IMG/VR virus record: IMGVR_UViG_3300010158_000310
Coordinates: 1 to 24,180 of that record
Length of the DNA stretch: 24,180 nt
Source: a virus
Strand: one strand, 5' to 3'
The first letter of the stretch is position 1. Each line of letters starts with the position of its first letter. The position numbers and the translations under genes were made by a program. Below the pieces are notes generated by a model. That model saw nothing but the letters and a program-made list of their open reading frames with translations, did not search any database and was not told where the DNA came from. Shown here in pieces: positions 9,480 through 20,904 of the stretch.

Positions 9480-9731
9480 TCAGTACATTGTTCCTAAGTT
9501 TGGCATGATCGACATAATCCCTGCCACTGCTTTTGCCCAATCTTGCCAGTTTTCAAACCCACGATGGTCTGGCACGCCTGATTGCACAAAGTATCCAATA
9601 CCATTCAGTCCATCAACCCACTGCCGCCAGTTCTCTTCTGGCACATTACCCAACTGGTTTGATGCAAACAATTCTTCCATCAGCTTGCAATACTGATCCC
9701 AAGTCATGCCTCTAGGGTCGTACGCTATCAC
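9480..9731 (-). CDS. Small Trp-rich protein of unknown function
   Basis: This is an 83-residue protein with five tryptophans (for example NWRQWVDGL and FENWQDWAKAV), giving two similar Trp-containing helical segments. The start is a GTG at 9731 overlapping the stop of the tail hub gene (GTGA). The upstream ribosome site is weak, so translation is probably coupled to the hub. An internal ATG at 9707 has a purine stretch too close to serve as a good ribosome site. Its position suggests a small tail or ejection accessory protein. I do not recognise a family. Confidence 0.6.
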   Translation of the reverse strand: MIAYDPRGMTWDQYCKLMEELFASNQLGNVPEENWRQWVDGLNGIGYFVQSGVPDHRGFENWQDWAKAVAGIMSIMPNLGTMY

Positions 9732-12289
9732 GGGTTGCCCGTTCCGCGAATATCGCCAGTCTCAACATTGAGCACTACACGTCCCATGAAGTAATCCCCA
9801 TTCACTGTATTGCTGGTAAAACGCAAACGCATTTCACGGCGTTGCTCTTTGAGGTCAATTTTAAGCGTGGTGGGATCAAAGTTGTAAGGATCAGAAGCAA
9901 TATCAGTATCGTCCGCAAAGCCTTTACCTGTCACCACCATGCTCATGGTTCCTGCTTGTTGGAAGTCAGGCTCAACACGATCCAAACGAGTCCATAAATT
10001 CTCTCCAGCGCCTTGTGGATTTCCAACTAATCCCATGTTAGAACCCAAAACATTGGTTTCAAAATAAGATTCAATGGCATTAACATTATTCAAGTACGTC
10101 GAGTTTGTCCCAGACTCTTGCACCCACAATGTATAGTTGCCTGTGCTGTTTGCCACATTGCCAGCCCAAATAGGCTTGCGAAACACCTCAGAAAAATATC
10201 CTGCAGAACGATTGGCACCATCAGCTAATCCAGCGTCATACCAACATTGTTCACGCACGTTGTAAATAATGGCATCGTTGCATTCAACAGAGGTACCGCG
10301 AGGATAGAACCACCATATCTCACCCCAACGAGGAATCTTGCTTGCCCATACTTTTTGTCGCTGTGCAACATTTAATCCGTCAAAAAACCAGTTAAGGTTT
10401 TGAGTGTTTTTCACTTCTTGGACAACGCCGTTGTACATCAGGAATCTATCAATACCCGCCCAGTAAATGATTCCATCGTATTCAATACAACATTGGCTTG
10501 ACATGATGGAAGACTGATTTGTAACTAAGTCGTAGCGCCAATACAAAGTAGCAGTACCTACATTTTGAGGCGCATAGCTGACACGAATAACCGAATCAGT
10601 GCTCCAAAACAAGCCTGCTGGAGATGTTGTACCGCCACGCAATGCCATGCCCTTGACAATCTTTGTAGAGGCTACATTGTTTGCATTTGCATCAGCAGAT
10701 GTCCAATTAAGAAAATTGCCGGCAGAACAGTTTTGAATCAAGCCATTGTTACCATACACAAATAAGTATGGGAACAACATACAAACACCACCAGACACAC
10801 TGATGTTGTTGTCAAAAGTCAAAAGAACAGTGCCAGATGCTGTGGCATTTGCTGACAAAGTTACTGACCATAAGCTAACTGCTTGCGCAACAAATGTTAA
10901 GCCTGCGGTTGTTCCTGCCGTGGTAGTGAGCGCTCCTCCATTTGGAAGAGTCAAGGTAAATGTTGTGCTTCCATTTGTAGTGCTGATGAAATATGAGCCA
11001 GCAGAAATACCTGATGCTGTACCTGTCAGAGTACCTGTGACAATCACTTGTTGACCAGAAACAATTGTTGTAGCACTACAAGAAAATTGACCTGCTGTTC
11101 CTGTAACAGCAACCGATGCCAAAGTAATGTTGTTGCTGATTAGGTTAGAAGAAACAATAGTCGTGCTTGCAGGAATACCTGTTCCTGTGACTGTTACGCC
11201 TGCGCCCATAGCCAAATTTGTAGTTGCAAAAGTAACTATGGCTGATCCATTTGTTGTAGTGCCTGTCGCCGTAAACACACCGACAGGAGTCAATGTGGTA
11301 CCAGTCAGCGTTCCAAGAAGAGGTCTAGTGTTAACAGTACTGTCAATGTTGGCTAAATTAATACCGGGGTGCCCAATCAAATTCAAGTTGCCTGTGCCAC
11401 CAGAATCAAAGCCAACATCCCATTGCCATAATGTGTTTGAATTTGATTGGTAGTAGTTGCTAGATGGAGCAACATTCACCCCATAGTAAGTAACTGAATT
11501 GATAGTCCCTTGGAAAGCAGTCACAGGATTGAAAGTCAGTCCTGTTGTGGTTCCAGCAGTAGTTGTAATTGCACTCCCGCCCAATGATGCGGACAAAGTA
11601 AAAGTTGTTGTTCCGCCAGTTATGACGTAATAGGTGCCCGGTCCAATTCCAGTGGCAGTTCCTGTCGATGTGCCTGTAACAATGATTTGTTGGTTTGCTA
11701 CAAGAGTAATTGTGCTTGCACAAGAAAACTGACCAGCAGTACCTGTCACAGCAACAGTGGATAAGTTGTTGCCGCCTATGCTTGAGTTTAAGAACGTGAA
11801 AGTGTCCCCATAACCATAACCTGTACCATTTGCCGTCGCTGTGATGCTTGTTACAACATTACCAGACACAACAACAGTAAATGTGGCTCCTGTGCCATTG
11901 CCGCTAGTGGTAACAGGAGATATGCCAGTATAAGTGGCGTTTACATATCCTAAACCAGCCGTTGTGATGGAGTAAGTAGTGATGCTACCAATGACATAAA
12001 TTTGCTGTGGGCCTGTACCGATTGCTTGATCATTGGCAATTGCCCATCTTTGAACACTACTTGCAAATCCAGATATTACATAGGTAAGACCATTTTGGGA
12101 TTGATTAATCATCCCTCTGCTTATTTCTGGCGAATTTAAAAAAGCTCCTGAATAGCCCCCTATCTTTCGTGGGCGACCATATTGAAACCTTACCCACTTT
12201 CCATCTCGATAGGAAGATGAGGCAAACTCGGTGCCATCTCTTTCAATGCCTGCTTTTACCTGTATGACAGCAACTTTTTGAGTTGTCAT
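9728..12289 (-). CDS. P22 gp10-like tail hub / DNA-stabilisation protein with two inserted beta-modules
   Basis: This is an 853-residue protein. The N-terminus (GIERDGTEFASSSYRDGKWV and what follows) and the region from about residue 500 to the end (PYLFVYGNNG, STDSVIRVSY, YDGIIYWAG, VWASKIPRWGEIWWFYP) match what I recall of packaged-DNA-stabilisation/tail-hub proteins of P22 gp10 type in podoviruses. Such proteins seal the head-tail channel. P22 gp10 is about 470 residues; this protein is nearly twice that. The excess is Thr/Gly/Ser-rich beta sequence at about 95-280 and 335-495, each holding one copy of a shared 77-residue module. Backbone-like sequence (NTLWQWDVGF, HPGINLANID) lies between them. 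Start ATG with GGAG; overlaps the upstream fibre stop as TAATG. Confidence 0.75.
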   Translation of the reverse strand: MTTQKVAVIQVKAGIERDGTEFASSSYRDGKWVRFQYGRPRKIGGYSGAFLNSPEISRGMINQSQNGLTYVISGFASSVQRWAIANDQAIGTGPQQIYVIGSITTYSITTAGLGYVNATYTGISPVTTSGNGTGATFTVVVSGNVVTSITATANGTGYGYGDTFTFLNSSIGGNNLSTVAVTGTAGQFSCASTITLVANQQIIVTGTSTGTATGIGPGTYYVITGGTTTFTLSASLGGSAITTTAGTTTGLTFNPVTAFQGTINSVTYYGVNVAPSSNYYQSNSNTLWQWDVGFDSGGTGNLNLIGHPGINLANIDSTVNTRPLLGTLTGTTLTPVGVFTATGTTTNGSAIVTFATTNLAMGAGVTVTGTGIPASTTIVSSNLISNNITLASVAVTGTAGQFSCSATTIVSGQQVIVTGTLTGTASGISAGSYFISTTNGSTTFTLTLPNGGALTTTAGTTAGLTFVAQAVSLWSVTLSANATASGTVLLTFDNNISVSGGVCMLFPYLFVYGNNGLIQNCSAGNFLNWTSADANANNVASTKIVKGMALRGGTTSPAGLFWSTDSVIRVSYAPQNVGTATLYWRYDLVTNQSSIMSSQCCIEYDGIIYWAGIDRFLMYNGVVQEVKNTQNLNWFFDGLNVAQRQKVWASKIPRWGEIWWFYPRGTSVECNDAIIYNVREQCWYDAGLADGANRSAGYFSEVFRKPIWAGNVANSTGNYTLWVQESGTNSTYLNNVNAIESYFETNVLGSNMGLVGNPQGAGENLWTRLDRVEPDFQQAGTMSMVVTGKGFADDTDIASDPYNFDPTTLKIDLKEQRREMRLRFTSNTVNGDYFMGRVVLNVETGDIRGTGNP
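10889..11116 (-). repeat. Beta-module copy 2 inside the tail hub gene
   Basis: This encodes residues about 392-467 of the hub. It begins SVAVTGTAGQFSCS, passes through QQVIVTGTLTGTASGI and GSTTFTL, and ends TTAGTTAGLTF. It corresponds along its whole length to copy 1 at 11528-11758. The module resembles a Thr/Gly-rich unit I have seen inserted in other phage structural proteins. Confidence 0.75.
11528..11758 (-). repeat. Beta-module copy 1 inside the tail hub gene
   Basis: This encodes residues about 178-254 of the hub. It begins TVAVTGTAGQFSCA, passes through QQIIVTGTSTGTATGI and GTTTFTL, and ends TTAGTTTGLTF. It is preceded by a Gly/Thr stretch (GTGATFTVVVSGNVVTSIT) that belongs to the same insertion but has no second copy in this gene. 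Confidence 0.75.
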
Positions 12290-13608
12290 TAGAAAGCTCC
12301 AGCGCTGACACCAACAGTCATTCGCAAACCAGTTGAGGTCAGTGTTCCTGCACTAGCTCCAGAAATTGCAAATCCCAACTGCCCAGAAGCAGCTAAATAA
12401 AAACCAGTTCCTGTATCAGTTTGAAAACTGATTGATGGGTTTGCTGCAGATCCATTGCCTACTGTTAGAGCAACTATATAACTGGCTGCTGAAGAATTAG
12501 CGTTGTAAAGATTGGTGCCATCACTGATTGCAATAACTGTTTGACTTGCCCCAACAACCAAGGTAGTGCCCAATGCAGCAGTACCAGTACTGTTTGCAAT
12601 ACCAAAAGTCAGTGTGTTTGCTCCTGTGGTTGCGTTTCGTAAAGAATACAACTGCACAGTCTGTGGCAATAGCACTGTTAAGTTAAGACCAAGAGCACCT
12701 TGGTATTGTTGAATTACGCTTTTGGCATTTGCCTGCGAGACAACAAATGGTGAAGAAACCACCGAATCTAGAGGAGCCACATACTGCGTGTAATTGAACA
12801 CATTGGTCTGTGCCAATGCATAAGTAAACCAGTTGTACCCATCGGTCACAAATACGCTGGAATTAGCAATTTGTATCTGCACAGAGGCTGTGCCACCTGT
12901 AGGCGAGCTTCCTGATGAGACTGGATCAATCTTAATAGCGCCGCCAGAAACAGCTACTGTTAATATGCCAGTACCATTGTTTTTAACGATGACAAACCAG
13001 CCTGCGCCAACGCCTCCTGTGCTTGCAATTGGATTTGGTAAAGTCGCAGTGCCTACACCACCACCCCATGTATAAAGGTCTGCTCTATCTGAACTAATGA
13101 ATGTGTAGTTAGAAGAGAAAGTTGTAACTGGTATAGATTCATTTAACGTATTACTGATTGCTACAAGACCAGAACCAGCTAATGTCGCCGCACTCGCGGA
13201 TGAAGTACCAATACCCATGGCGACGTTGGACCATGTACCGTCTTGGGTTAAATTACTTGTTAAATAAATGTAATAGGTGTTTGATACTGTGCTCGATGCC
13301 GATAAGGGAATGTTGACAATGACAGTATTGGCAACACTTGTAACGACATTAAATGCGTAGTTACCGTTACCCCCTATGTTTCGGATGATGATTGCTTGAC
13401 CATTGGAAACTTGCGTTGCCGCTGGAAGAATCAACTTTAAGTTTGCCGCAGTAGCAGTTACTTCAATAATGTTAGCTACGACATTACCTGTGGTAGTACC
13501 GTTTATAGGCCAAGTCAGAGTGGTGTCTGAACTGATCGTAAGACTTTCATAACCCACTTGTGATGGGTTGAGGGTTTGGCCCGTGTAGGGGTTGGTATAT
13601 GTAGGCAT
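12289..13608 (-). CDS. Modular tail fibre or tail appendage protein
   Basis: This 439-residue protein is rich in Ser, Thr, Gly, Ala and Asn and built of short beta-strands, as in phage fibres and receptor-binding appendages. It starts MPTYTNPYTGQTLNPSQVGY. A segment around residues 57-130 (LILPAATQVSNG followed by TVIVNI and DGTWSNVAMG) resembles a module in the 656-residue fibre (QLPDATTLPNG, TLIVSV, AGSWDYHAG). The C-terminus contains NPSISFQTDTGTGFYL, a sequence style typical of fibre ends, and finishes GVSAGAF, nearly the same ending as that fibre. It lies between the adaptor and the hub. Function is inferred from composition and place; no enzymatic or chaperone domain is seen. Confidence 0.7.
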   Translation of the reverse strand: MPTYTNPYTGQTLNPSQVGYESLTISSDTTLTWPINGTTTGNVVANIIEVTATAANLKLILPAATQVSNGQAIIIRNIGGNGNYAFNVVTSVANTVIVNIPLSASSTVSNTYYIYLTSNLTQDGTWSNVAMGIGTSSASAATLAGSGLVAISNTLNESIPVTTFSSNYTFISSDRADLYTWGGGVGTATLPNPIASTGGVGAGWFVIVKNNGTGILTVAVSGGAIKIDPVSSGSSPTGGTASVQIQIANSSVFVTDGYNWFTYALAQTNVFNYTQYVAPLDSVVSSPFVVSQANAKSVIQQYQGALGLNLTVLLPQTVQLYSLRNATTGANTLTFGIANSTGTAALGTTLVVGASQTVIAISDGTNLYNANSSAASYIVALTVGNGSAANPSISFQTDTGTGFYLAASGQLGFAISGASAGTLTSTGLRMTVGVSAGAF

Positions 13609-13610
13609 GA

Positions 13611-14249
13611 TTAGCTGTCCACTGCAATTGTTTGTCTGTCTGCAACTCTAGATACATCCTCAGTCTTTAGAGACTTAATTGCCTCCATGTACTTCTGTTG
13701 GAATATCTGTCGTTGGTCGTTTTTAAGAAAAGGCATCGCTTGCAACAAGGTGCCAAACAACATGGCGTTGGGTGCATTCTGCGTCAACCAATTAGTCTGA
13801 TTTTCTGAAGACAAAGGTTGGATTCGTTCGTAATACAAAATTTCAAACGCATATGCTTGATCAGGCGTTGGAGAGATATACCACCAGTCCCAACTTGTGT
13901 CTGCATAGTACAAGGGAGCGCCAGTGGTCGCACTAGATTGCGAGTAGTTGATCAGGTACTCATACTTGCGAAGCAAAACAGGATTCTTGTTTCCACTTGC
14001 ATCGGTGTAGTTCATAGACACTGTCTTGCGCCAACGTGCTGGCTTAGGCAGGTTAGGGCTTCCTGCCGACATGTTGGACTCTGCAATCTGAAGCTGACCC
14101 AAGGTTTTAATCTCTTGAGCAATCTCAAATTCAGCCAGCGTGATGAATGTTGGGACAGCATTGATCGTTGCCTGATCAGAACGCTCCAAATATTGCAGAA
14201 CGTAGTAGTTCAGGCTGTCATAAGTCATCACCCATGATGGTGTGGTCAT
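13611..14249 (-). CDS. Head-to-tail adaptor protein (SU10 adaptor / gp4-like)
   Basis: This 212-residue protein matches the pattern I recall for podoviral adaptor proteins that ring the portal. It has an N-terminal helical part (LQYLERSDQATINAVPTFIT, AEFEIAQEIKTLG), a middle strand-rich part (PARWRKTVSM, LLRKYEYL, PLYYADTSWDWWYISPTP) and a C-terminal part (EILYYERIQPLS, NWLTQNAPNAMLFGTLLQA). The C-terminal motif, in which tyrosines precede NWLT-x(3)-P-x(2)-LL-x-G, is the best family marker. Length is normal. The ribosome site AAGGGA precedes the ATG. It would connect the portal to the gp10-like hub encoded two genes downstream. Confidence 0.75.
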   Translation of the reverse strand: MTTPSWVMTYDSLNYYVLQYLERSDQATINAVPTFITLAEFEIAQEIKTLGQLQIAESNMSAGSPNLPKPARWRKTVSMNYTDASGNKNPVLLRKYEYLINYSQSSATTGAPLYYADTSWDWWYISPTPDQAYAFEILYYERIQPLSSENQTNWLTQNAPNAMLFGTLLQAMPFLKNDQRQIFQQKYMEAIKSLKTEDVSRVADRQTIAVDS

Positions 14250-16758: not shown

Positions 16759-18807
16759 TTAAGCGATTGCGAGAAAGATATAAGTGCCGGCACTGACGTT
16801 GATAGCCGCAAGAATGGTTGAATTCAGTGCAAAGCCTGTTGATACTGTGGTCACTGAGCCAAGGGTTGCTACTTCAGCCGCTGTGCTGTTTAAAAGCAAA
16901 TATGGGTCTGTCAATGTAGTCATACCACGGGCTGTGTCGTAGACGTACCAATCACCAGTGCTGTCTGTACGTTTGATAAGAACAAACCTAGCGCCACCAG
17001 CACCAAAGCCACAGTCGATGGTTTGAGTTGTTCCATTGCCTGTGTAAGTTCCTACTTTGCTTACGCCAGCACAAGTGGCAAACAAGTAAGCCACAAAAGT
17101 TGCTGCTGAAGCGTTTGAATCAGTATTTGTTCCTACACTAAATACTGTTGATGTTGGTGCTGTTGAATTCCATGCAGTTGAATCAGCGGCACTTGCATTG
17201 GTTAAGTTTAAATATAATTTATTTGCATAACCAAGCGTACTAGCGCCAATAAGCCATCCTGTAGTTGATGCTGCACTACGTTTTTTTACAATTACTAACT
17301 CAGGAGCAACGCCTAAATTATGGCTAAACGTAGTTGCACTTCCCGTACCCGTATAGCAAACCTCATCAAAGAAGCTAGGGGCGCGACCAAATGACCAAAC
17401 GATGTTGTTGGCAACTGTATTTTGTTCAAGAAAACCATTCTGAATGGTTGTTGTTCCAGTCAAAGCCACACGACCAGAAGATGCTACTTCAGCAGAAGTA
17501 GTGTTTGTAGAAATTGTTTGTTGTTCTGTACTGTTGTTTGAGCCTCGAAGCCTATCAAAAACAAAGTTATTACCTGTTGTGGCAGTACCATTTTTATTAA
17601 TTGCCATATCAACCACATAACCAGTATCAGTTACTGTCGTTCCGCTAAAGGTGGCTTTTGTTGGTGTAAACACCTTAGTCGCATCCGTAGGCACTTTCAT
17701 CGGGCCTCTGCGGATGGCTATGTAGATGTAGTTATTAGCAGATGCGTTGACGGTAGCATTAGCGCCGTATGGATAGAAACCTGTTGCAGTAATACCCATC
17801 CAATTATTTGATATTTCTGCTCCGGAAGTGTTTGCATAAATCAGAGCATCATTACTAACTGCTGGGTCTGGCATCCCACGCATATTGTCTAACATTACCC
17901 AGTTAGCTGTATTGCTTGAATTCTTAACCATAACAAATTGTGGTTCATACCCAAGCGTAACAGTTGGGCCGACAGTTGATCCATTGCCTGTATAAGACCC
18001 ACAGCTAATCACATTGTCCGCATTCGTCAGGCCAAAGCCACCGGCGTTGTGGGCAAATAAATACATGACATAAGTGCCACCTACAACATTTACCCCAGAG
18101 GCTTGACCAACAGTAAATGTTGAACTTGTGGCTGGGCTTAAGGGCCAAACACTAGGAGACCCGGCTGTGGCGGAATTAGTTCCATCTAAAATTAAATAAT
18201 CACCATTAGTCAGGCTTCTATGCCAAACATACCAGCTTGTACCTGCGGAATCTGTACGTTTAATAAGCACACAACCGGGGACGGAGTCAAGAGAATGCGA
18301 AACAGCCTGAGTACTGAGTCCATTTCCACTGTATGTCACAACATCAAAGAACTTTGTTTGTTTGCGAAATGTCCATGAGACAAAACTTCCAGTGTTACTG
18401 TTCACATCTGCGTATGAGCCTAGCGAGAACCCAGTACTGTTGAATGCGGTTATGGCATTTGCGTTTGTTTGTTCTGCACCAGTCGTATTGCTTATCAGGT
18501 ATTTAGTTGCACCACGAACAGTGTCTTCCAAATGGTGGTCTGTAGCAGAACCTCTTCTGCGAATCCAAACCAACCCACCCTTTGTAGACAAGTCAATCCC
18601 ATTGGTAATTGTCTGTGTAGAACCATTACCCGTATAGAGATACGTCGAGAAAACATCTTCAATGTAATTAAACGGACCGCCAAAGGGCCAGATGCCAGCT
18701 TGCTGCGCTTGTTCTTGTTGGTCAAGCGTCCAGATACCCGGCGCTGACGATGGTGTAGGCGCTACGTAATTCTTCGTAATAATCCCGCCGGGGTACTTGG
18801 TGCTCAT
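16759..18807 (-). CDS. Tail fibre-like protein A, about six DUF7483-type repeats
   Basis: This 682-residue protein is built from an N-terminal attachment segment (residues 1-53, containing WPFGGPFNYIEDVFSTYLYT) and about six units of 80-105 residues. Each unit has a GNG-type strand, a P-x-(L/F)V-x-(I/V)K-x-R hairpin, a W-x-(V/L)-x-D-x(2)-RG motif, an N-x-(S/T)-x-(A/G)E turn, a GF-[SA]-L strand and a Y-(V/I)-x(2)-A/L-F end. Units begin near residues 54, 153, 266, 396, 479 and 586. This matches what I recall as DUF7483, common in phage appendages and thought to be a carbohydrate-binding-like beta-sandwich. It is paralogous to the next gene upstream. The C-terminus TYIFLAIA is nearly the same in both. 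Confidence 0.75.
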   Translation of the reverse strand: MSTKYPGGIITKNYVAPTPSSAPGIWTLDQQEQAQQAGIWPFGGPFNYIEDVFSTYLYTGNGSTQTITNGIDLSTKGGLVWIRRRGSATDHHLEDTVRGATKYLISNTTGAEQTNANAITAFNSTGFSLGSYADVNSNTGSFVSWTFRKQTKFFDVVTYSGNGLSTQAVSHSLDSVPGCVLIKRTDSAGTSWYVWHRSLTNGDYLILDGTNSATAGSPSVWPLSPATSSTFTVGQASGVNVVGGTYVMYLFAHNAGGFGLTNADNVISCGSYTGNGSTVGPTVTLGYEPQFVMVKNSSNTANWVMLDNMRGMPDPAVSNDALIYANTSGAEISNNWMGITATGFYPYGANATVNASANNYIYIAIRRGPMKVPTDATKVFTPTKATFSGTTVTDTGYVVDMAINKNGTATTGNNFVFDRLRGSNNSTEQQTISTNTTSAEVASSGRVALTGTTTIQNGFLEQNTVANNIVWSFGRAPSFFDEVCYTGTGSATTFSHNLGVAPELVIVKKRSAASTTGWLIGASTLGYANKLYLNLTNASAADSTAWNSTAPTSTVFSVGTNTDSNASAATFVAYLFATCAGVSKVGTYTGNGTTQTIDCGFGAGGARFVLIKRTDSTGDWYVYDTARGMTTLTDPYLLLNSTAAEVATLGSVTTVSTGFALNSTILAAINVSAGTYIFLAIA
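17667..17731 (-). repeat. 65-base block shared with fibre B (copy in fibre A)
   Basis: It matches 19737-19801 at 64 of 65 positions, the single difference being at 17675. It encodes YIYIAIRRGPMKVPTDAT and two or three further residues. Neighbouring homologous stretches of the two paralogs have many synonymous differences, so this block stands out. Confidence 0.85.
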
Positions 18808-18816
18808 GTGTTGTCC

Positions 18817-20904
18817 TTATGCAATGGCGAGGAAAATGTAGCTGCCGCCAGAGGCGTTAATTCCTGCCGCCGTACTGACAATCTGGAATCCGCCTGTGGT
18901 TGTGTAGATGCTGTTAGCGTTAACTTCAGCGGCGGTAGAGTTCAACAACAATGATGGGTCTGTACCGCTTACCATTCCACGAGCAGTGTCCCACACATAC
19001 CAATCGCCTGTTGTGTCTGTGCGCTTAACAAGAACAAACCGAGCACCACCAGTGAAGCCACACGCTATTGTTTGGGTTGCACCTGTACCGCTATAACTGC
19101 CGACTTTGCTCACACCAGCGCAAGTTGCAAACAAATAGGAAACGTAAGTAACTCCAGATGTGTGAATATTTGCACTACTATTATCCATAGCCATCAAAGT
19201 GCTGGTTGGTTGACTACTTAAACCTATTCCATCAGTCCACAAATACGCGCCAGCCGCATTAGTCAAATTTAAATACGACCTGTTTACTCCCGAAGAAGTC
19301 ATTTGGCTGAATACTTGCCAGTTTCCAACAACAGACCTTGATTTAAAGAAAATCAACTCAGGTACTACGCCTAAATTGTGATTAACGTTTTGCGGTGTTG
19401 TTCCAGTCCCCGTATAGCAAACCTCATCAAAGAAGCTGGGGGCGCGTTGAAAAGCATAGTTGATGTATGTATTTGGGCTTGTATTAACAGAGTAATTGTT
19501 TACGTCGCTACCTAAACTAAAACCAACATTGCTTGCAAAAGAAGTTAAGGTATACGCGTCTGAAACTTCGGCGCTGGTTGTATTTGAATACAACAAGTTA
19601 GTAGCGCCGCGCAAACGGTCAAAAAACTTAGACGCTTGCCATCCACTTTGGCGCTGTTGAATCCAAGTTGAATCTACAACAAAATTAGGAGTTGTAATAA
19701 CTGCGTTTGCACTAGTACCAGTACGAGCAATAGGACTAAACACCGTAGTCGCATCCGTAGGCACTTTCATCGGGCCTCTGCGGATGGCTATGTAGATGTA
19801 GGTTGAGCCAGAACCATTAAGCACGGTACTTGTACTTGTCAAAGTAAAGCCAGTTGCACTTGGGGCTATTCCATCAGAATTTGCTGTTTCTGCGTTAGAC
19901 GTGTTTGCATTTAAAGTATTTGTGTTTGCTCCTGAATTTGCCGTCATGCCACGCATATTGTCGAATAAATACCAAGAACCAGTGGTGCTTGATGCTTTAA
20001 CCATCACCCATTGCGGTTCATAACCCAACGTAACGGCAAGCCCTACTGCTCCTGTACCCGTATAAGACCCACACGAAATCACATTGTCTGAATTAGTCAG
20101 ACCAAAGCCGCCTGCGTTGTGGGCGAATAGGTAGGCTACGTAGGTTGCGCCATTGATGTTTCCATTATTACCTGCGGCATCATTTACCCATGCTGGCTGA
20201 AAAGTTGTAGCTGATTGGTAGGTTGTTGCGTTAAGTGTGTAAAGAAAGGCATTTGTTGCATTTAAACTACCACCCGTTTTACTGGTTGTAATTCCGCTTG
20301 CAATGTGCCATACACCCCAATCACTTGTTGAATCTGTGCGTTTCCAAATAATGCAACCAGGGACGCTTTGCAAATTGTGCGGGACTTCGTGACTTAGTAC
20401 CCCATCCCCCGTATAAGTCACCACATCAAAGAACTTAGGCTGCTTGCGGAATGTCCATGAGGCGTACGTATTGGGAGATAGGTTAGTGTTTGAGTATTGC
20501 TCAACACCAAGAGAAAAACCAGTAGTGTTAAAAGATGTTAAATCATTAGACACTCCAGAAGGGCCAGTTTGTGCAGCAGTTGAATTTGAACTAAGTTTAT
20601 AACTTCTAGTACGGGCAGTGTCGTACAAATTATGCCCAAACGCATTGGAGCGTGCTTTTATCCAAACTAAGCCACCATAGGTGGACAGGTCAATGCCATT
20701 GACAATGTTATTTGTAGTATCGTTACCTGTATAAAGATACGTGCTAAACACATTTTCAATGTAGTTAAACGGTCCACCAAAAGGCCATGTGCCCGCGCCT
20801 TGAGCCTGAGCCTGAGACTGCAAAGTCCACTCTCCAGACGCCGATGTTGTAGACGTAGTTGGTGGGGTTGCGCTAATTATTGCGCCTTTGTAGCGTCGGC
20901 TCAT
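18817..20904 (-). CDS. Tail fibre-like protein B, paralog of fibre A
   Basis: This 695-residue protein has the same layout as its neighbour: a start with GEWTLQSQAQAQGAGTWPFG, then WPFGGPFNYIENVFSTYLYT, then repeated units with the same markers (GGLVWIKARS, GCIIWKRTD, PQWVMVKASS, ELIFFKSRS, ARFVLVKRTD). The end is SYIFLAIA. It clearly arose by gene duplication. Divergence is strong in the loops between motifs and low in the framework, suggesting that the two proteins bind different ligands or form a hetero-oligomer. It is in tandem with fibre A, with a good GGAG site and a 9-base gap between the genes. Function is inferred from place and composition. Confidence 0.75.
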   Translation of the reverse strand: MSRRYKGAIISATPPTTSTTSASGEWTLQSQAQAQGAGTWPFGGPFNYIENVFSTYLYTGNDTTNNIVNGIDLSTYGGLVWIKARSNAFGHNLYDTARTRSYKLSSNSTAAQTGPSGVSNDLTSFNTTGFSLGVEQYSNTNLSPNTYASWTFRKQPKFFDVVTYTGDGVLSHEVPHNLQSVPGCIIWKRTDSTSDWGVWHIASGITTSKTGGSLNATNAFLYTLNATTYQSATTFQPAWVNDAAGNNGNINGATYVAYLFAHNAGGFGLTNSDNVISCGSYTGTGAVGLAVTLGYEPQWVMVKASSTTGSWYLFDNMRGMTANSGANTNTLNANTSNAETANSDGIAPSATGFTLTSTSTVLNGSGSTYIYIAIRRGPMKVPTDATTVFSPIARTGTSANAVITTPNFVVDSTWIQQRQSGWQASKFFDRLRGATNLLYSNTTSAEVSDAYTLTSFASNVGFSLGSDVNNYSVNTSPNTYINYAFQRAPSFFDEVCYTGTGTTPQNVNHNLGVVPELIFFKSRSVVGNWQVFSQMTSSGVNRSYLNLTNAAGAYLWTDGIGLSSQPTSTLMAMDNSSANIHTSGVTYVSYLFATCAGVSKVGSYSGTGATQTIACGFTGGARFVLVKRTDTTGDWYVWDTARGMVSGTDPSLLLNSTAAEVNANSIYTTTGGFQIVSTAAGINASGGSYIFLAIA
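19737..19801 (-). repeat. 65-base block shared with fibre A (copy in fibre B)
   Basis: Partner of the block at 17667-17731, with one mismatch (19745). A second shorter shared block pairs 19409-19446 with 17348-17385 (37 of 38 bases, coding for the RAPSFFDEVCYTG region). Confidence 0.85.

Follow-up and report, generated by a model that had tools for sequence, protein, structure and literature searches.

The tail hub encoded by the virus IMGVR_UViG_3300010158_000310 consists of a nozzle core into which four inserts of three module types, termed B, C and D, have been placed. Among related phages these modules are inserted, gained, lost and moved between lineages, and module C is present in other virion proteins as well; on the sequence evidence, modules are moreover nested inside modules. 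It is probable that the conserved core of ~510 residues tolerates insertions at a few sites, and that B, C and D are in-frame cassettes which are exchanged between phages. The window denotes the whole 24,180-nt stretch of this record, and all coordinates are window positions, while residues follow the numbering of the hub (Table 1).

Identity and core fold of the hub

Judged from its single-chain prediction, the hub belongs to the podovirus-type tail nozzles and resembles gp10 of P22. The protein matches phrog_3287 (E 8.8e-21), and a profile built from its alignment reaches the PDB nozzles 9nwi (E 4e-16) and 8zkk (E 2e-11), the nozzles concerned being those of Pa223 and VP1. Predicted alone from a 58-sequence alignment, the hub adopts the nozzle fold (pLDDT 84.6, pTM 0.72), with platform and beta-propeller matching solved nozzles over 420–476 residues at Z 20–24. 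The highest value was obtained with the Pa223 nozzle (Z 24.0, 450 residues, 4.0 Å), followed by VP1 (22.7), SU10 (21.7), P22 gp10 (21.3) and Sf6 (20.0), and these comparisons refer to the whole hub and say nothing about the modules by themselves. The gp10-like identity put forward in the original prediction thus holds, and it is backed by an SU10_adaptor gene in the tail cluster near the hub. The same applies to the expected lengths of ~850 residues for the hub and ~470 for P22 gp10, which are 853 aa and 471-residue chains, respectively.

The best viral structure match to the hub model is a 587-residue protein that aligns at a TM of 0.91 of its own length, which argues that the hub core is intact and that the inserts are additions. 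Without its inserts the hub comprises ~510 residues (94+50+362 of core), and insert-free homologs measure 510–549 aa. The modules are therefore not integral parts of the core, given the 587-residue match and the existence of homologs of ~510–550 residues that have no inserts. Elsewhere in the window, two neighbouring fibre-like paralogs (16759–18807 and 18817–20904), each with two DUF7483 stretches, apparently represent a tandem gene duplication.

Table 1. Positions of the hub gene, its core segments and modules, and neighbouring genes in the window.
Feature	Window positions	Strand	Evidence and remarks
Tail nozzle (gp10-like hub), 853 aa	9728..12289	minus	ORF, phrog_3287, PDB profile matches, predicted fold
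Core segment 1, residues 1-94	12008..12289	minus	Alignment and HMM; in all homologs
Module B, residues 100-173, site 1	11771..11992	minus	HMM 96 bits; missing from many homologs
Module C copy 1 (C1), residues 179-253	11531..11755	minus	Site 1, immediately after B
Core segment 2, residues 286-335	11285..11434	minus	Alignment and HMM
Module D N-terminal part, residues 336-386, site 2	11132..11284	minus	HMM 63 bits
Module C copy 2 (C2), residues 393-466	10892..11113	minus	Nested in D; presence/absence pairs among relatives
Module D C-terminal part, residues ~467-491	10817..10891	minus	Aligned to unbroken D of L003, L044 and others
Core segment 3, residues 492-853	9731..10816	minus	HMM 719 bits
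Third insertion site, empty here, residues ~715-720	10130..10147	minus	B there in L089, L091, L103 and others
Adjacent tail gene, without module C here	12289..13608	minus	Homologs elsewhere carry C
SU10-type adaptor	13611..14249	minus	PF24175 E 3.4e-22; one gene from hub

Architecture of the inserts

The ~350 extra residues of the hub are owed to its four inserts, which follow one another in the order B, C1, D and C2, with C2 lying within D. Insert sites were defined by HMM segments built from homologs; fixed regular-expression anchors failed on many of these. The original prediction had recognized two copies of one module in the hub, and both are present where it had placed them, with 70% protein identity, although their sizes and spacing differ slightly from the 76–77 residues and 137 residues proposed (C1 and C2 measure 75 and 74 aa, respectively, and 139 residues separate them). 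At the DNA level 146/228 positions are identical. The alignment of C1 with C2 scores 239, far above all of 2000 shuffles (mean 27, sd 11, maximum 77), so that a chance likeness is excluded. The record of the window contains exactly two copies of module C. A recent duplication within the hub gene was considered as their origin and rejected, each copy being closest to the same-site module of other hubs.

The stretch between the copies had been taken for hub backbone, which is correct for residues 286–335, but residues 336–386 belong to D. Likewise, the idea of one mobile domain in two loops of the core stands with respect to insertion and mobility, but not for the number of inserts, which is four, or for the second site, where C2 is inside D. 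At site 1 the HMMs also separate B as a further insert just before C1. C1 is missing from the near-relatives L044 and L006 (237-nt gap), and D is uninterrupted where C2 is missing, e.g. in the homologs L003 and L044. In the window itself an A1-B1-C-B2-A2 order is found, with C2 within D forming a one-level nest. Module B also occurs at sites 2 and 3 of other hubs; at the third site the match to core segment 3 is broken at model position ~227, with B between the halves. By analogy, this place may be likened to the fibre-dock loop of SU10 (residues 839–857).

When module C was searched against Pfam, no family reached a meaningful E-value, and neither PHROG nor the PDB, the latter by sequence, gave a convincing match. 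A tblastn search of phage and plasmid records returned no match to it either, which is weak evidence with the low-complexity filter on.

Gain, loss and exchange of modules among hubs

Hub homologs in IMG/VR range from insert-free proteins of ~510–549 aa up to 1704 aa. They do not all carry both copies of module C at the same places: homologs with both, with C1 only, with C2 only and with neither were found. The place of C2 within D holds B, or nothing, in other hubs, and the short homologs have no trace of module C as judged by HMM segments. The number of changes was estimated by parsimony on a tree of 117 hub representatives made from core columns only. Module C was gained or lost at least six times at site 1 (seven carriers) and at least 13 times at site 2, B changed a minimum of nine times at site 1, and the whole content of site 2 changed a minimum of 24 times, all of these being minimum counts that are not independent, since the hubs, and likewise the nested arrays, are related among themselves. 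Among one-per-species genomes only two relevant contigs were present.

Two near-isogenic pairs capture single events. The hubs of L016, which has C2, and L082, which lacks it, are 97.1% identical in DNA save for one in-frame stretch of 261 nt, and those of L013 and L071 are 97.4% identical save for one in-frame, C2-bearing stretch of the same 261 nt. The module DNA of L016 and L013 is 95.6% identical, whereas the DNA of their hub C-termini is only 68.7% identical. A sliding comparison of these two hubs displays an island of 88–98% identity from residue ~340 to 425, with sharp edges and flanks mostly at 55–85%. The near-isogenic pairs also differ over a few tens of bases on either side of the indel, indicating that the replaced tract reached into D; this suggests that the replacement arose by recombination between shared D sequences.

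Since C1 and C2 of the window are each nearest to same-site modules of other hubs, and not to each other, exchange appears to take place mostly between equal sites, with jumps being rarer. Resolution is poor in the tree of module copies (16/152 branches well supported), so that only ~4 jumps between hub and non-hub proteins are forced, which is a lower bound. In the 1704-aa hub homolog (L138:2303-7414), site 1 contains roughly twelve B modules together with a single C, which represents an extreme expansion via a module other than C.

Module C in other virion proteins

A profile search for further genes with the module, as suggested in the original prediction, was productive. Homologs of the adjacent tail gene carry module C at residues ~69–145 (L089, L091, L092, L128, L129, L134, L137 and L164), and further hosts are an S74-chaperone tail fibre, a pectate-lyase-like tailspike, the head closure protein Hc3, a large tail-fibre-like protein and another nozzle family. 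Module C is found at high identity in otherwise unrelated virion proteins. The genome of L007 has a third copy of C in a 415-aa ORF (L402:943-2190) that immediately follows what resembles the major capsid gene, suggesting that a head protein uses the module too. In one pectate-lyase tailspike (L145:2570-4387), one copy of C seemingly interrupts a second copy at another loop, further along the module. A contig binned with a Crenarchaeota-group MAG (L165:3423-5846) also encodes a phage-like nozzle containing module C, and is probably a viral contig in that bin.

Nesting of module C in itself, as read from sequence

In some relatives the copies of module C are broken into halves whose order resembles that of brackets. 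The array of L113 reads N N N N N F C C C C F C: five halves open, one full copy follows, four halves close, and then come a second full copy and a last closing half. Among complete ORFs with at least four half-modules, 27/31 form balanced words, whereas putting the same halves in random order gives 6.4 on average and 15 at most; the ORFs are partly related, so this serves as a descriptive control. Self-nesting in relatives would be five to seven levels deep. Two hub clades, the L113 group and L137/L141, have deep arrays, in both cases at site 2; other families (L148, L115, L338 and L293) contain nested words as well. Smaller nests span ORF residues 219–473 in L338 and 216–632 in L137.

The distance matrices of halves that would pair by nesting correlate in 12/14 deep arrays (r 0.43–0.79), while L252, a truncated ORF, and L336 (2/14) display no clear nested co-variation. 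Parallel pairing of the halves gives r ~0 or less in the L113 group. In the separate clade of L137/L141, nested pairing yields r 0.58–0.67 and parallel pairing r 0.43–0.47, and these arrays are weaker evidence for nesting because the parallel pairing correlates too. The model of the L113 array (696 residues, 11 sequences) reached a pLDDT of 36 and is unusable, so that the nested fold is read from the sequence alone. On this basis it is a serious possibility, if not quite an even one, that module C is a self-nesting cassette that enters a fixed loop of its own fold, giving a stacked arm with its paired ends at the core. Copy number, which is one here and five to seven levels in relatives, would then set the length of six tip arms and change fast as module copies recombine with one another.

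Alternative explanations

Were the modules ancestral to the nozzle subfamily, their distribution would reflect repeated loss with no movement between lineages. The closeness of C1 and C2 to same-site modules elsewhere fits vertical descent at each site, and several of the changes counted on the core tree may have been losses, but such descent fails to explain why the modules of L016 and L013 are so nearly identical when their hubs are ~69% identical elsewhere. For this pair the explanation is already contradicted, and the occurrence of C in unrelated virion proteins, together with the lack of any trace of it in short homologs, makes ancestral loss very unlikely overall. Although nearly all carriers are uncultured contigs, it is extremely improbable that the variable architectures are chimeras of metagenome assembly: the identical hub sequence is present in a second IMG/VR contig (L005), the two-module form recurs in contigs of several metagenomes (L007–L012, L018 and L020), and every reading frame stays open.

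As for the arrays, the N- and C-halves could have grown by separate tandem duplication of each half, with the need for pairing keeping their counts equal. Their very regular spacing (N ~37–38, C ~48–51 residues) is in line with such growth, as is the fact that outer halves are alike and unlike the inner full module. By contrast, counts are balanced at several depths and in different hub clades, nested pairing correlates where parallel pairing in the L113 group does not, and C2 in D is a one-level nest with empty-site counterparts in relatives, so that we regard separate duplication as somewhat unlikely. A different question is whether the modules are specific carbohydrate-binding domains that set the host range. 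They are shared by tail fibres and a pectate-lyase tailspike, and the recent shuffling of phage domains centres on receptor-binding proteins (PMC10684548). However, the Pfam and PHROG searches give the module no binding function, and its presence in a head-closure protein and in the ORF following a capsid-like gene suggests a generic surface domain instead; the carbohydrate-binding role is thus unlikely.

Comparison with known systems and proposed role

The nozzles of P22 (gp10), Pa223 and VP1 resemble the hub in fold (over ~420–450 residues), in the size of the core and in the place of the gene beside the adaptor, but their chains have 471–521 residues, the hub being ~350 longer through its four inserts. 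The original prediction regarded insertions in a nozzle as less expected, an assumption that finds no support in SU10 and crAss001, whose nozzles are known to carry extra domains. The propeller of the SU10 nozzle gp17 has four extra Ig-like domains inserted after blade 2 and before blade 3; when the phage adsorbs, these domains straighten and the tail becomes longer. Blades 1–3 point away from the axis, and blades 4–6 line the channel (PMC9509320). The SU10 core is homologous to that of the hub by sequence and by fold (Z 21–22), with hub residues 586–712 corresponding by sequence to SU10 residues 712–843, and the profile alignment spanned this shared core stretch only. Counted back in residues from there, the SU10 insert would fall at site 1 of the hub. 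The inserts of SU10 have no sequence match to B, C or D, and the text of the SU10 account does not mention one module being exchanged or nested (PMC9509320).

The muzzle gp44 of crAss001 contains an Ig-like domain between blades 2 and 3 and another in blade 3, the latter with a further large domain inside it, and insertions account for variation in length (PMC10172136). Its bulk is a unique crass fold, however, and no copies of one module passing from gene to gene are described (PMC10172136). With the SU10 insert placed at site 1, the blade-3 insertion of the muzzle may be the counterpart of site 2. Outside phages, the SI3 domain of cyanobacterial RNA polymerase consists of small related domains nested several levels deep by recursive domain insertion (PMC13114784), but SI3 is part of a cellular enzyme, whereas module C occurs in a phage tail and is also gained, lost and transferred. 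Domain mosaicism, in which phage proteins that are otherwise unlike have come to share fragments recently, has likewise been reported (PMC10684548); the word nozzle does not appear in that text, and the shared unit is here a small internal nesting cassette.

The small beta-rich modules B, C and D have entered sites in the core and are probably swapped between phages as in-frame cassettes, an exchange that would proceed mainly by recombination where module sequences are shared. Site 1 of this phage has B and C1, and site 2 has D with C2 inside. The modules would lie on the exterior of the nozzle, taken as a hexamer, and off the DNA channel, as the extra domains do in SU10 and crAss001. The most economical reading by analogy is that they are outward or tip-facing surface domains, six-fold if the hub is a hexamer, that can be exchanged with the channel untouched. 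Because nesting in a distal loop leaves both chain ends at the base, an arm could extend from a loop of the core with the core unbroken. The modules may lengthen or decorate the tail tip, so that tail parts can dock there or the tip can make loose contact with the cell surface.

Significance

Insertions in nozzles, domain shuffling in phages and recursive domain insertion are each already known. The published literature searched yielded no case in which they come together in a single module that moves, is common to several virion proteins and repeatedly nests in itself. Module C, for which there is so far no Pfam or PHROG model, can help to annotate many large structural proteins of uncultured phages, and near-isogenic hub pairs isolate single module events. 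One small module moves in frame, as a cassette, through the conserved protein of the DNA channel and through other virion proteins. If self-nesting is structurally true, it would provide a simple rule by which insertion into a loop builds a long arm and leaves the host fold undisturbed, and this bears on the diversification of tail tips: swapping and nesting of modules may change the exterior of the tail tip, with the DNA channel untouched.
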